Of a DNA stretch of 47,860 nt, positions 1 through 3,226 are shown piece by piece. Under the pieces are notes generated by a model. It was given only the letters and a program-made list of their open reading frames with translations, was not told the origin of the DNA and did no database searches. The stretch is from Oscillospiraceae bacterium. GTDB taxonomy: Bacteria > Bacillota > Clostridia > Oscillospirales > Oscillospiraceae. Position 1 is the first letter of the stretch, and every line of letters begins with the position of its first letter. The stretch lies in assembly GCA_902761055.1 (NCBI GenBank), contig CACWIS010000013.1, forward strand, positions 1 through 47,860, in the 5' to 3' direction. The position numbers were made by a program, and so were the translations under genes.

Positions 1-336
1 ACGCTCAAGGAAGCTGCCGACCGGCAGGAGATCTCCGAAAAATATTTGGAGAGCATCGTAAAGGATCTGGTGAAAGGGCAGTTCATAGAAGGCGTGCGCG
101 GGAAAGGCGGCGGCTATCGGCTTTCCAGACCGGCTGAAGAGATCAGCGTTTTGGATGTCCTGCAATCGGCAGACGGTACGATCGCTCCCGTAGCCTGCCT
201 CGAGGAGGGCAGCGCGCCCTGCTCCCGTGCGGCGGTCTGCAAGACGCTCCCGCTCTGGAAAGGGCTGGACAGAGTTGTCAGCGAATATCTCAGCGGCTTT
301 ACCGTGCGGGATCTGGCAGAAGACAAAGTACAATAA
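1..336 (+). CDS. Rrf2 family transcriptional regulator (5' end outside window)
   Basis: The 3' part (111 codons) of an Rrf2-type winged-helix regulator; the start lies before base 1. Seen: the recognition-helix/wing segment ISEKYLESIVKDL followed by GVRGKGGGYRLSRP, which is the Rrf2 signature, and then a C-x7-C-x5-C cysteine triad (VACLEEGSAPC, then SRAAVC) like the Fe-S ligands of IscR-type members. Known of the family: members sense Fe-S status or cysteine (IscR, CymR) and usually repress. It converges on cysE/cysK and shares a terminator with them, so cysteine or Fe-S control of the neighbouring cysteine genes is a reasonable inference. Family call is secure; ligand and targets are not. 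Confidence 0.88.
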   Translation, partial: TLKEAADRQEISEKYLESIVKDLVKGQFIEGVRGKGGGYRLSRPAEEISVLDVLQSADGTIAPVACLEEGSAPCSRAAVCKTLPLWKGLDRVVSEYLSGFTVRDLAEDKVQ

Positions 337-344
337 CGAAAGCA

Positions 345-391
345 GCTTAAAAGAGCTTCCGGGATCAGGCAGATCCCGGAAGCTCTTTTTA
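345..391. terminator. Bidirectional intrinsic terminator between rrf2 and cysE
   Basis: A 16-bp perfect inverted repeat (351-366 and 372-387, loop aggca) is flanked by A-rich sequence on the left and a T run on the right, so it can end both the plus-strand regulator and the minus-strand cysK-cysE transcript. Confidence 0.85.
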
Positions 392-1267
392 CAGCATGGA
401 GCAGTCCAGCACAGGGTTTGTCACAAGCTCTTTTGTCAGCGGCGCGTCCGTCACGGCTGCGCGGGCCAGAACCATTTTCCCGGCAGGGACCGAATGCGTC
501 AGCCACACGCTGCCGCCGATGATGCAGTCGTTCCCGATCTGCGTCTCTCCGCCCAGAATCGTGGCGCCAGAATAGATGATGACGCGATCGCCGATATCCG
601 GATGCCGCTTGATCCCTTTGACGAGCGTCCCGTCCTCCCCGACCTCAAAGCTCTTGGCGCCGAGCGTGACGTGCTGATACAGCTTGACGCTGCAGCCGAT
701 GGTCGTCGTCTCCCCGATCACCACGCCGGTGCCGTGGTCGATGAAGAAGGAATCGCCGATGACCGCACCGGGATGGATGTCGATCCCCGTCAGGCGGTGG
801 GCGTACTCCGTCATCATGCGCGGCAGGAGCGGCACGTTCTCCCGATACAGGATATGGGCCAGACGGTAGGTGCTGATGGCCGTGAAGGCCGGATAGCAGA
901 GGATGACCTCGTCGAGGCTTTTCGCCGCTGGGTCCCCCTGATAGGCGGCGATCAGGTCGGTCTGCAGCTGCCGCCTGACTTCCGGCAGGCTTTGCAGCAG
1001 GACGGCGAAGACCGCCTCCAGAGGCGGCGAGTCCGGAATGTGTGCAAGGCAGTCCTCCAGCACCCCGGCCGCCTGCAGCAGACGCGATTCCCGTGAGGTG
1101 CGGTCAAACGAGAAGCGCGGAAAAAGCGCGTCGATCATCAGATCGGTAAAGCGCTCCGCCTGCAGGCGAAGTCCGGCTGCGGAACGCGCTTCGCCATCCA
1201 GCGAGGCATCCAGGCGCTCAAGGGTGCGGGCGGTCTGACGCGTCAGGATCGGCAGTGTCTGATCCAT
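389..1267 (-). CDS. cysE: Serine O-acetyltransferase
   Basis: Transfers acetyl from acetyl-CoA to L-serine, giving the O-acetylserine used by CysK next door. About 292 aa: an alpha-helical N-terminal half, then the left-handed beta-helix hexapeptide domain with the conserved stretch GIDIHPGAVIGDSFFIDHGT and VVIGETTTIG, typical of SATases of the EpsC/long type. I chose ATG at 1267, one base after the cysK stop; a TTG at 1279 would overlap cysK by 11 nt and add four residues. It is translationally coupled to cysK and is the last gene of the unit. No strong Shine-Dalgarno sequence is visible, which fits coupling. Confidence 0.93.
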   Translation of the reverse strand: MDQTLPILTRQTARTLERLDASLDGEARSAAGLRLQAERFTDLMIDALFPRFSFDRTSRESRLLQAAGVLEDCLAHIPDSPPLEAVFAVLLQSLPEVRRQLQTDLIAAYQGDPAAKSLDEVILCYPAFTAISTYRLAHILYRENVPLLPRMMTEYAHRLTGIDIHPGAVIGDSFFIDHGTGVVIGETTTIGCSVKLYQHVTLGAKSFEVGEDGTLVKGIKRHPDIGDRVIIYSGATILGGETQIGNDCIIGGSVWLTHSVPAGKMVLARAAVTDAPLTKELVTNPVLDCSML

Positions 1268-1268
1268 A

Positions 1269-2201
1269 TTATTCGGCAAAGAGCGGGGTGGAGAGATAGC
1301 GGTCGCCTGTGTCGGGCAGGAGCGCCACGATGGTCTTGCCCTTGTTCTCCGGGCGCTTGGCCAGCTGGATCGCGGCCCAGACCGCCGCGCCGGAGGAGAT
1401 GCCTACCAGCACGCCCTCCTTCCGTCCGACCAGCCTGCCGGCGGCAAAGGCGTCCTCGTTCTCCACGGCGATGACCTCGTCATACACGGCGGTATTCAGC
1501 ACGTCAGGGACAAAGCCCGCGCCGATGCCTTGGATCTTGTGTGAACCGGCCGTGCCCTTTGAGAGCACCGGAGAGCCCGCGGGCTCGACGGCCACGACCT
1601 GCACGGCGGGGTTCTGTTCCTTGAGATATTCGCCCACGCCGGTGATTGTGCCGCCCGTGCCGACGCCCGCGACAAAGATGTCCACCTTGCCGTCGGAGTC
1701 CGCCCAGATCTCCGGCCCGGTCGTCGCCTTGTGGATCGCGGGGTTCGCAGGGTTGACGAACTGTCCTGGGATAAAGGCATTGGGGATTTCTTTTGCCAGC
1801 TCGTCGGCCTTGGCGATGGCGCCCTTCATGCCCTTGGAACCCTCGGTGAGCACCAGCTCCGCGCCATAGGCTTTCATGAGCTGACGGCGTTCCACGCTCA
1901 TGGTCTCGGGCATAACGATGATGATGCGGTAGCCGCGCGCAGCAGCCACGGAGGCAAGCCCGATGCCGGTGTTGCCGGAGGTAGGCTCGATGAGCACAGA
2001 GCCCGGCTTGAGCAGGCCTTTCGCCTCTGCGTCGTCGATCATGGCCTTGGCGATGCGGTCCTTGACGGAGCCTGCGGGGTTAAAGTATTCCAGCTTGGCA
2101 AGGAGCTTCGCTTCCAATCCCTCTTCCTTCTCGATATTGGTGAGCTCCAGCAGCGGGGTCTTCCCGATCAGCTGATCGGCGGATGTATAGATGTTAGACA
2201 T
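1269..2201 (-). CDS. cysK: Cysteine synthase A (O-acetylserine sulfhydrylase)
   Basis: PLP enzyme making L-cysteine from O-acetylserine and sulfide. 310 aa, the usual length. Seen: the PLP lysine in [11 protein letters not shown] near residue 45, the substrate loop [12 protein letters not shown] near 71-82, the glycine-rich phosphate loop [12 protein letters not shown] near 176, and GISSGAA near the C-terminus. Start ATG at 2201 has a good Shine-Dalgarno (aggagga) five bases upstream. It sits between the B3/4 gene and cysE; the 106-bp gap upstream contains an inverted repeat reaching the ribosome site. CysE and CysK normally form the cysteine synthase complex, and their adjacency supports this. 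Confidence 0.96.
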
Positions 2202-2211
2202 GATAGTTCCT

Positions 2212-2262
2212 CCTGTTTCATTAGTTTTTAATTAAATGTGAGTTTACCGATAGTGAAACAGG
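2212..2262 (-). promoter_or_regulatory. Inverted repeat ending at the cysK ribosome binding site
   Basis: Nine-base perfect arms (2212-2220 and 2254-2262, CCTGTTTCA / TGAAACAGG) are separated by 33 A/T-rich bases. In the minus-strand RNA the 3' arm ends in the first bases of the cysK Shine-Dalgarno, so a hairpin could hinder cysK translation. It could instead be a DNA operator. No convincing separate cysK promoter is seen. Confidence 0.4.
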
Positions 2263-2307
2263 GGCAACATCGCTCTCTCAACAGGGACATGGCGGCGATT
2301 CCTTCTT

Positions 2308-3000
2308 TCATATGACAGCGGATTCTTTTATGCCCGGCTTGATGATGATTCCGGTTCCTCCGCAGTATTTTGTTGTCAGGTCAATGATCGTCTGCGCGGT
2401 CTCATGCAGCAGCTCATCCGGCGTGGCCTCGTTGCCCTGGATGATGTAAAAGATATTGCGGGCGGATTCTTCGACCTTGGTCTTCTCCACCTGGCGGACC
2501 TCCAGACGGCAGAGCACCTCATTGGCGTCGTCACAGTAACAGTATTCGTGCGGTGCGACAGGTACAGGCTCTGTCTGGCCGATGGGCACAAAGCGCTCGC
2601 TGCCGTCGGTGAAGCGCAGGGTGACGTTTCCGTCCACCCGGTCGATGTTATGTGCGCCGAGGGCCAGCTTACTCTCCAGAGAGATCAGGTTATAGATATC
2701 CACCGCCTGGTTGATGTAGAACATACCGTGATTCTTCTTGAGCAGCTTGATGAGGTTCTCGCTGGCCGGGATATTCTTGCGGCGCTTGACCCCGGTCTTG
2801 TCATGCAGGATGTTAAAGCCCTCCAGAATTGGGTCGGCGTGGACGTCCAGCTCCGCATACGCCTCAAACAGCTCTTCCAGGCGCTTGTCACGGTATGCGG
2901 CCCATTCCGGATCCTCGCCGTGATTGTCGAGACCGCAGACCTTTGCGAACACAATCTTGACCCCCGCGTCCAGCACGGCCTGTTCTACAAAAAATTCCAT
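2308..3000 (-). CDS. Solo B3/4 domain protein (PheRS-beta editing-domain-like)
   Basis: 230 aa, matching my recollection of the stand-alone B3/4 family (the domain that edits Tyr-tRNA(Phe) in phenylalanyl-tRNA synthetase beta). Seen: a helical N-terminal region, then LEGFNILHDKTGVKRRKNIP, ENLIKLLKKNHG, INQAVDIYNLISLESKLALG and AHNIDRVDGNVTLRFTDG, in the order usual for these proteins. ATG at 3000 follows a gaaagg Shine-Dalgarno; a longer frame to 3057 would run through the terminator hairpin and is rejected. It is the first structural gene after a Cys-rich leader peptide and terminator and precedes cysK-cysE. Substrate unknown; the context suggests a link to cysteine or serine mischarging, which is inference. 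Confidence 0.8.
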   Translation of the reverse strand: MEFFVEQAVLDAGVKIVFAKVCGLDNHGEDPEWAAYRDKRLEELFEAYAELDVHADPILEGFNILHDKTGVKRRKNIPASENLIKLLKKNHGMFYINQAVDIYNLISLESKLALGAHNIDRVDGNVTLRFTDGSERFVPIGQTEPVPVAPHEYCYCDDANEVLCRLEVRQVEKTKVEESARNIFYIIQGNEATPDELLHETAQTIIDLTTKYCGGTGIIIKPGIKESAVI

Positions 3001-3021: not shown

Positions 3022-3053
3022 AAAAAAACCGGAGAACCCATAAGGCTCTCCGG
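3022..3053 (-). terminator. Leader terminator (attenuator) ahead of the B3/4-cysK-cysE unit
   Basis: In minus-strand RNA a ten-pair GC-rich hairpin (3029-3053) is followed by seven U (3028-3022). It lies 26 nt after the leader peptide stop codon and 22 nt before the B3/4 start codon, the geometry of a transcription attenuator. Confidence 0.8.
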
Positions 3054-3079
3054 TCAAGTCGACACAGGCTCACAGAGGT

Positions 3080-3160
3080 CTAAATGGGCAAGGCAAAGCA
3101 CACGCGCATCTCACAGCGCATGTCACAACACATCATGCAGTTGAAGCTCGCCCTACGCAT
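3080..3160 (-). CDS. Cysteine/methionine-rich leader peptide (26 aa)
   Basis: A 26-codon ORF between a sigma-A promoter and an intrinsic terminator. It starts ATG at 3160 with an excellent Shine-Dalgarno (GGAGG, five-base spacer). The product reads MRRASFNCMMCCDM, then RCEMRVCFALPI: five Cys and five Met in 26 residues, including a tandem Cys pair. Known: operons for amino acid synthesis are often attenuated by leader peptides rich in the end product, and Cys-codon leaders have been described upstream of sulfur genes. Inference: slow translation of Cys codons when Cys-tRNA is scarce prevents formation of the terminator at 3022-3053. I could not work out a definite antiterminator pairing. A secreted or catalytic role is less likely. 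Confidence 0.78.
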   Translation of the reverse strand: MRRASFNCMMCCDMRCEMRVCFALPI

Positions 3161-3197
3161 ACTGGCCTCCGAAGAAAAAACCTATTAAGATGATATG

Positions 3198-3226
3198 TTT
3201 ATAGCACACAAGAATTCTCTTGTCAA
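3198..3226 (-). promoter_or_regulatory. Sigma-A promoter of the cysteine leader operon, with palindrome in the spacer
   Basis: TTGACA (3226-3221), 17-bp spacer, TATAAA (3203-3198). The spacer holds a perfect inverted repeat ACAAGA-ATTC-TCTTGT (3208-3223), a candidate operator placed where a bound repressor would block RNA polymerase. Confidence 0.85.

Follow-up and report, generated by a model that had tools for sequence, protein, structure and literature searches.

Transcription attenuators of the trp, his and leu type consist of a short open reading frame (ORF) rich in codons for the end product, an intrinsic terminator, a competing antiterminator and biosynthetic genes downstream. In Firmicutes, T-boxes are the control mostly known for amino-acid genes. 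For the aminoacyl-tRNA synthetase genes of Firmicutes, the accessible text of a paper from 2005 likewise gives mostly T-boxes and none with classical attenuation (PMC1262725), and a paper from 2010, in its accessible part, describes His leader peptides that replace T-boxes before hisZ and hisS* in bacilli (PMC2965389). Poly-Cys leader ORFs have been described for mycobacteria, for cys of P. acnes and for cbs of B. longum; according to the available portion of that source they have no conserved terminator, and in the mycobacterial and actinobacterial leaders the Cys runs are located near the stop (PMC1262725). In M. smegmatis the ORFs are leaderless, a response to cysteine has been reported and the mechanism is described, in the available extracts, as translation attenuation (PMC9031893, PMC13236596). 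A further type, uORFC-8-2 of the Rhodobacterales (alphaproteobacteria), counts 145 examples which lie exclusively before cysS and carry tandem Cys usually at codons 14-15 (PMC8632094). Among the open-access literature matches listed, with most subscription papers outside the scope of the search, there was neither a cysteine leader-peptide attenuator in Clostridia nor a short ORF before metY.

The window analysed here is a stretch of 47,860 nucleotides from an Oscillospiraceae bacterium (contig CACWIS010000013.1 of assembly GCA_902761055.1). A first-pass annotation, made from the letters alone, had proposed a cysteine-codon leader peptide with an attenuator ahead of a B3/4-cysK-cysE unit, and all elements of this putative attenuator are on the minus strand. 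The promoter claimed there as consensus was found by direct reading at 3198-3226(-), with TTGACA (3226-3221) and TATAAA (3203-3198) separated by 17 nt; a strict scan missed it because its -10 ends in A. The leader ORF MRRASFNCMMCCDMRCEMRVCFALPI (3080-3160(-); ORF list, peptide and profile searches, codon table) is indeed 26 codons long, with five Cys (codons 8, 11, 12, 16 and 21), five Met including the start and a Shine-Dalgarno sequence GGAGG at 3170-3166(-). The latter, read directly as CGGAGG, is segment A (3166-3171(-)) and is paired with segment B in the minimum free energy (MFE) fold. The tandem Cys codons 11-12 (TGT TGT, 3125-3130(-)) are the proposed main stall site and Cys codon 16 (TGT, 3113-3115(-)) lies in the loop of an internal hairpin, unpaired in the fold. 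With a Cys frequency of 0.98%, taken from 30 mechanical long ORFs of the window, the chance of at least five Cys in 25 codons is P = 4e-6; of the 676 stretches in the window that run from start to stop over 15-40 codons, 4 have at least five Cys, and among these four the leader ORF alone has a preceding GGAGG (by eye). That it is not a chance product follows from its conservation in relatives.

Just past the stop codon lies segment B (ACCTCTG, 3073-3079(-)), which according to the pairing and folding tests could have A or the 5' arm of the terminator as its partner. The intrinsic terminator (3022-3055(-); direct reading and fold) has 13 pairs (3055-3027), with arm C at 3055-3043, arm D at 3039-3027 and T7 at 3028-3022. 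The GC hairpin and U7 of the first-pass annotation are thus present, whereas their placement just after the stop was loose, since the hairpin begins 24 nt past the stop codon. The genes after the terminator follow in line on the minus strand, as had been claimed: a B3/4-domain protein as first gene (2308-3000(-); Pfam PF03483, E 7e-20; no NCBIfam match at 1e-10), cysK for cysteine synthase A (1269-2201(-); NCBIfam TIGR01139, 462.9 bits, cut-off 351) and a cysE-like serine O-acetyltransferase gene (389-1279(-)). The last of these reaches 157.7 bits with TIGR01172, below the cut-off of 210.65, and matches Pfam Hexapep and SATase_N above their cut-offs. An Rrf2-family gene, whose start lies before the window, is convergent with cysE and is a candidate repressor of the same operon. 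The Rfam scan of the window gave 0 matches at gathering score, T-box RF00230 included, and the short peptides given to NCBIfam and Pfam (six, then four) had no match.

To what extent the leader is conserved was addressed by searches of related genomes. With the single peptide, 35 of 101 congeneric genomes match at E<=10 and 28 at E<=0.001. A profile built from 28 peptides among these matches found 38 sites in 30 of 102 congeneric genomes at E<=1.6e-5, a result that is partly circular for those 28 because the profile was built from them; the next match was at 0.0085. In the other 72 of the 102 genomes, many of them incomplete, the profile did not find the leader. Among 300 family genomes (completeness at least 70) three match at E<=0.01, namely the genome that holds the window, a congener and a species from a different genus, in which the leader site (L125, outside the set described below) precedes metY. 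Judged from these searches, the leader is rare outside the genus. Scanning named genomes with a DNA pattern yielded 33 loci. Twenty-two of them have a profile match, are labelled Oscillospiraceae, Ruminococcaceae, Clostridia, Clostridiales, Eubacteriales or Eubacteriaceae, and carry isolate names that point mostly to ruminant guts; the other 11, from unrelated groups, had no profile match at 18 bits. A family-wide DNA pattern with three mismatches hit 140 of 300 genomes, mostly noise, and was set aside.

Altogether, 42 distinct leader sites were collected, 38 in the genomes of the genus and four from public records, where distinct means non-identical over the leader plus 60 bases on each side and matches below 18 bits were discarded; some are near-identical (L019, L084 and L112; L023 and L096). 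The first recognised downstream gene is cysK at 19 sites, metY at 13, B3/4-cysK at two, an amino-acid ABC permease at four and an ABC substrate-binding protein at one, with none at three; 39 of the 42 leaders thus precede genes for cysteine or methionine synthesis or amino-acid ABC genes, as expected for targets within one pathway. For the ABC permease and binding protein, models for cystine and other amino acids stay below cut-off and only the general permease model is above. The leader of L118 precedes a symporter of the sodium:dicarboxylate family, the locus of L028 is cut by the contig end, and L121, without promoter and without terminator, looks degenerate. After the leader of L029, the binding protein combines a family-3 amino-acid domain and an NlpA/MetQ-type domain in one frame, which stays open to the end of the locus.

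Among B3/4 loci with enough upstream sequence, a leader directly before B3/4 was seen, besides the window, only in L002, which is 99% identical and the same site as L017. Other genes preceding B3/4 are metY-like in L003 and L004 and cysK-like in L005 (by eye). In L096 and L099, B3/4 lies between metY and cysK, and in L099 the starts of metY and B3/4 are only about 250 nt apart and metY looks cut down. The row in L037 reads leader, metY-type short ORF, metY 3' remnant, cysK-type short ORF, cysK (by eye). Since B3/4 is otherwise preceded by other genes and L037 retains a metY remnant, the gene arrangement of the window may have arisen by loss of metY.

The check that had been proposed, conservation in relatives, was carried out, and the ORF frame, the Cys codons and the terminator are kept. 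The leader is a conserved ORF in which end-product codons follow a Shine-Dalgarno, as is typical for attenuators, and a GC-rich terminator follows the leader stop in 41 of 42. TTGACA and a TATA-like -10 at a distance of 15-19 nt were found at 39 of 41 sites (L112 dropped), the two misses being L096, at a contig end, and L121. An inverted repeat between -35 and -10, ACAAGA-GAAT-TCTTGT (6-4-6), was considered as an operator and rejected, since sites such as L016 and L019 do not retain it. The peptides contain two to six Cys (mean 3.8, 41 sites). Codon by codon, the comparison rests on the 34 sites of exactly 26 codons, omitting six sites of other length, L112 and L121. Cys is found at codon 11 in 32, at codon 12 in 32, at codon 16 in 31 and at codon 8 in 18 of the 34 sites, and five of the seven non-Cys cases at codons 11, 12 and 16 are Trp. 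Codon 16 is TGT in 31 of 34 and TGG in the other three; because it sits in the hairpin loop, base pairing does not explain its conservation. Pooled over codons 11, 12 and 16 there are 84 TGT and 11 TGC, over the entire leaders 104 TGT and 53 TGC, and in the mechanical long ORFs of the window, a rough yardstick, 26 TGT and 103 TGC. Other constant residues are M9 (32/34), D13 (28/34), R15 (29/34, the codon being CGC in 29 of 29 Arg cases), E17 (31/34) and P25 (34/34).

Folding of 3180-3018(-) gave z = -4.5, with 0 of 200 shuffles as good; without the 3' arm of the terminator z is only -1.2 and 25 of 200 shuffles are as good. The signal is thus mostly that of the terminator, and folding of the single sequence makes no case. 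The MFE fold pairs codons 1-5 with 21-26, 6-9 with 10-12 and 13-15 with 18-21; the Shine-Dalgarno has the post-stop bases as its partner. When the internal helices and the terminator were followed in an alignment of 33 of the 42 sites, 83.3% of cells were paired (72.7, 84.0, 89.9 and 90.4% for helices 1 to 4), compared to at most 53% in slid control structures, a comparison which by itself favours the counted structure, as this is the MFE fold of the window's leader. Cells changed on both sides numbered 65 versus 32.5 in shuffles (reached by 0 of 500), and 19 pairs had a both-side change (reached by 6 of 500 shuffles); both measures are inflated by the relatedness of the sequences. In the terminator, 8 of 13 pairs have changes on both sides. 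The internal hairpin ACAUGCGC-N8-GCGCGUGU (3100-3123(-), codons 13-21; fold and alignment of 33) is paired in 89.9% of cells in the 33 sequences, with both-side changes in 4 of 8 pairs; of the 31 sequences that have letters at the outermost pair, 22 cannot form it.

The pairing of A with B was tested by comparing own with cross combinations, because the Shine-Dalgarno is out of register on alignment A2. These tests and the folding model used 28 of 39 usable sites, leaving out L112 (contig end), L121 and L028. For the 28 non-redundant sites, A:B was more stable within its own leader (-11.35 kcal/mol) than across leaders (-9.77 kcal/mol; P = 0.0008), and other degrees of thinning gave P = 0.0006, 0.016 and 0.006 for 30, 16 and 12 sites. 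Examples are GGAGAAC/GUUCUCC (L030), GGAGAC/GUCUCC (L039, L119) and GAGGAGACAUC/GAUGUUUCCUUC (L118).

An antiterminator could not be drawn by the first-pass annotation. We now propose B:C, the pairing of B with the terminator arm C, for which the mean energy is -10.8 kcal/mol; the proposal comes without site-by-site covariation (own versus cross, P about 0.7), and the complementarity is strong but generic. The folding model considers the RNA ahead of the ribosome only, before arm D exists, in the 28 sites. The expected number of B:C pairs was 2.1 without ribosome, 7.7 with the A-site at codon 12, 6.6 at codon 16 and 0.25 at the stop; the corresponding values were 1.4, 2.7, 2.2 and 0.43 in spacer-shuffled controls and 3.0, 6.3, 6.2 and 0.39 with spacers swapped between sites. 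Five of the 28 sites (L035, L036, L044, L116, L119) are expected to form more than 5 B:C pairs even when no ribosome is present. When upstream RNA was allowed to pair, one stalled ribosome gave only 2.1-3.1 B:C pairs versus 2.1 without, because A:B recloses, and addition of a second ribosome on the start codon gave 6.1-7.1. If a ribosome is assumed to cover -15 to +16, one that holds codon 11 or 12 in the A-site reaches back to +12 or +15, which roughly coincides with the front of an initiating ribosome. According to the model, either A:B would be blocked sterically by one ribosome, or a queue would be needed. The window's own copy is predicted to form B:C weakly, with 0.1 pairs without ribosome, 3.5 pairs with codon 11, 5.2 with codon 12 and 1.7 with codon 16 in the A-site, and 1.2 at the stop; with a queue, the values for these three codons are 1.2, 3.3 and 1.7. 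Even without a ribosome, a large part of its arm C is engaged with other upstream bases (fraction 0.91).

Most leader sites have a further short ORF between the terminator and the main gene, and in the window such an ORF lies directly before cysK (2228-2290(-); ORF list and comparison). The approximate sequence of this ORF is LLRxN[FY]RxGRM ahead of metY or ABC genes; the versions ahead of cysK contain x-R-C-R or R-C-C, and CGATGT is present in 18 of 19 leader-cysK sites (by eye). At E<=0.1 the metY form was found in 64 of 200 family genomes (completeness at least 85), which represent 39 of 82 genera; at E<=0.001 it was found in 43 of the 200 genomes. In 25 metY-form loci (L127-L151) the next gene, assigned by eye, is metY in 19, an ABC permease in three, binding-protein-like in one (L142) and unassigned in two (L136, L137); the last Arg-Met codons are CGA ATG in 25 of 25, and other Arg codons vary. 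Palindromic CCTAC(n)GTAGG-like stretches, possibly an operator, are located near the -10 upstream of metY in L127, L131 and L149, and seemingly also before cysK in some congeners (by eye).

From 28 congeners picked by hand for having no or only weak leader matches, 26 cysK loci in 24 genomes were read. About 9 of these 26 have a CGATGT-type short ORF without the main leader (by eye). In L179, a congener that lacks the main leader, a poly-Cys leader of dissimilar sequence (MMKKVCCCECCCRCCCRRML, nine Cys) stands directly upstream of cysK, with its own hairpin and T7 a few bases after the stop; this leader was unmatched in 300 family genomes, an absence that carries no weight. T-box matches at E<=0.001 were present in 36 of 36 relatives searched (31 above the family cut-off), with seven in the own genome.

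The reading as an attenuator gains support from the comparison of 42 sites, in which frame, Cys codons, promoter, terminator and the link to sulfur genes recur, and we put the probability that the locus is a ribosome-mediated transcription attenuator sensing charged tRNA-Cys at roughly 80%. From this arrangement we infer that ribosomes stall upon Cys starvation and thereby alter read-through. RNA polymerase would start at the conserved promoter and a ribosome would initiate on the 26-codon leader. With ample Cys-tRNA the ribosome would reach the stop and cover B, the C:D terminator would form and transcription would end before B3/4-cysK-cysE. With scarce Cys-tRNA it would stall at Cys codons 11-12 (or 16) and leave B free to pair with arm C while arm D is still to be transcribed, and the polymerase would continue into the genes. 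If the leader is not translated, B would pair with A, the leader's own Shine-Dalgarno, and C would be free to terminate. Since a single stalled ribosome need not keep A and B apart, full antitermination would require that A is blocked; the natural candidate, as a prediction, is another ribosome waiting in a queue at the start codon, for which a stall at codons 11-12 would leave just about enough room.

What runs contrary to a plain Cys sensor is the near conservation of Met, Arg and Pro codons, of which the RNA helices explain part. The leader might sense methionine besides or instead of cysteine, with Met codons 9, 10, 14 and 18 stalling the ribosome. This would fit metY, which leads to homocysteine and Met, as target at 13 of 42 sites, and internal Met residues that are as many as Cys (mean 3.7 per peptide, 41 sites), M9 being as constant as the Cys pair. 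We consider it unlikely, as the Cys codons are also kept at the 19 sites with cysK as first gene, Met 10, 14 and 18 are retained in only 26, 26 and 28 of 34 sites versus 32, 32 and 31 for Cys 11, 12 and 16, and several Met codons are also inside RNA helices. Slightly less doubtful, and still speculative, is an extension in which two ribosomes act as a coincidence sensor and an older, family-wide layer of short ORFs is added, so that Cys and Met would be read in series: only a stall at codons 11-12 together with a queued ribosome on the start codon would free the antiterminator, and Arg(CGA)-Met before metY or Arg(CGA)-Cys before cysK would constitute the second layer.

The strongly kept non-Cys residues M9, D13, R15, E17 and P25 could also be taken to mean that the peptide itself matters, MMCCDMRCEMR arresting the ribosome in response to a metabolite, with Cys required as a residue. 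That seems quite improbable: conservation also tracks RNA pairing, as is evident from the invariant CGC of R15 and the covarying helices within the ORF, a role of the residue alone predicts no preference for TGT over TGC at codons 11, 12 and 16, and a congener has the dissimilar poly-Cys leader before cysK. We regard it as very unlikely that the operon is controlled mainly at the promoter, by an Rrf2 repressor, with the leader only tuning expression or being a passive terminator. The Rrf2-domain gene at 46-336(+) (PF02082, E 5e-21), which may be CymR-like, does lie on the opposite strand with some 50 bases between its end and that of cysE, and the sequence following the -10 (about CATATCAAnnTnATAGG) is similar at many sites; Rrf2 control would nevertheless leave the Cys codons, the A:B covariation and the terminator unexplained, and Rrf2 repression and attenuation by the leader can coexist. 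Attenuation governed by charged tRNA-Cys is the reading we retain.

If it is correct, one genus whose members also carry T-boxes uses a cysteine leader plus terminator at several sulfur operons, and the alignment makes the switch testable base by base. To judge from the pairing of the Shine-Dalgarno with the post-stop bases, a leader peptide could respond to queued ribosomes as well as to single stalls.

The sequence comparisons thus support a probable cysteine leader-peptide attenuator in Clostridia, unusual in that the ribosome binding site of the leader itself takes part in the pairing. With uORFC-8-2, as far as the available text describes it, the leader shares a conserved tandem-Cys ORF, a U-run terminator and the proposed sensing of tRNA-Cys; it differs from that type by tandem codons at 11-12, by cysK, metY and transporter genes as targets and by its occurrence under Oscillospiraceae and other Clostridia labels (PMC8632094). 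Like the poly-Cys leaders of mycobacteria and others in the accessible account, it places Cys-codon ORFs before cysteine synthesis genes (PMC1262725). Unlike the mycobacterial leaderless class, it has a Shine-Dalgarno GGAGG, a 5' stretch ahead of the start codon, as judged by where the promoter lies, and Cys codons in the middle of the ORF, and a terminator is present, with transcription attenuation proposed. The His leaders of bacilli are likewise leader-peptide attenuators in Firmicutes in place of T-boxes, with another amino acid, gene and sequence (PMC2965389). With the trp, his and leu attenuators, finally, the locus has in common the ORF of end-product codons, the terminator and the biosynthetic genes, and the proposed B:C would be the counterpart of the competing antiterminator; what sets it apart is cysteine as the amino acid and a protector made from the leader's own Shine-Dalgarno and the post-stop bases, which would close the whole ORF.
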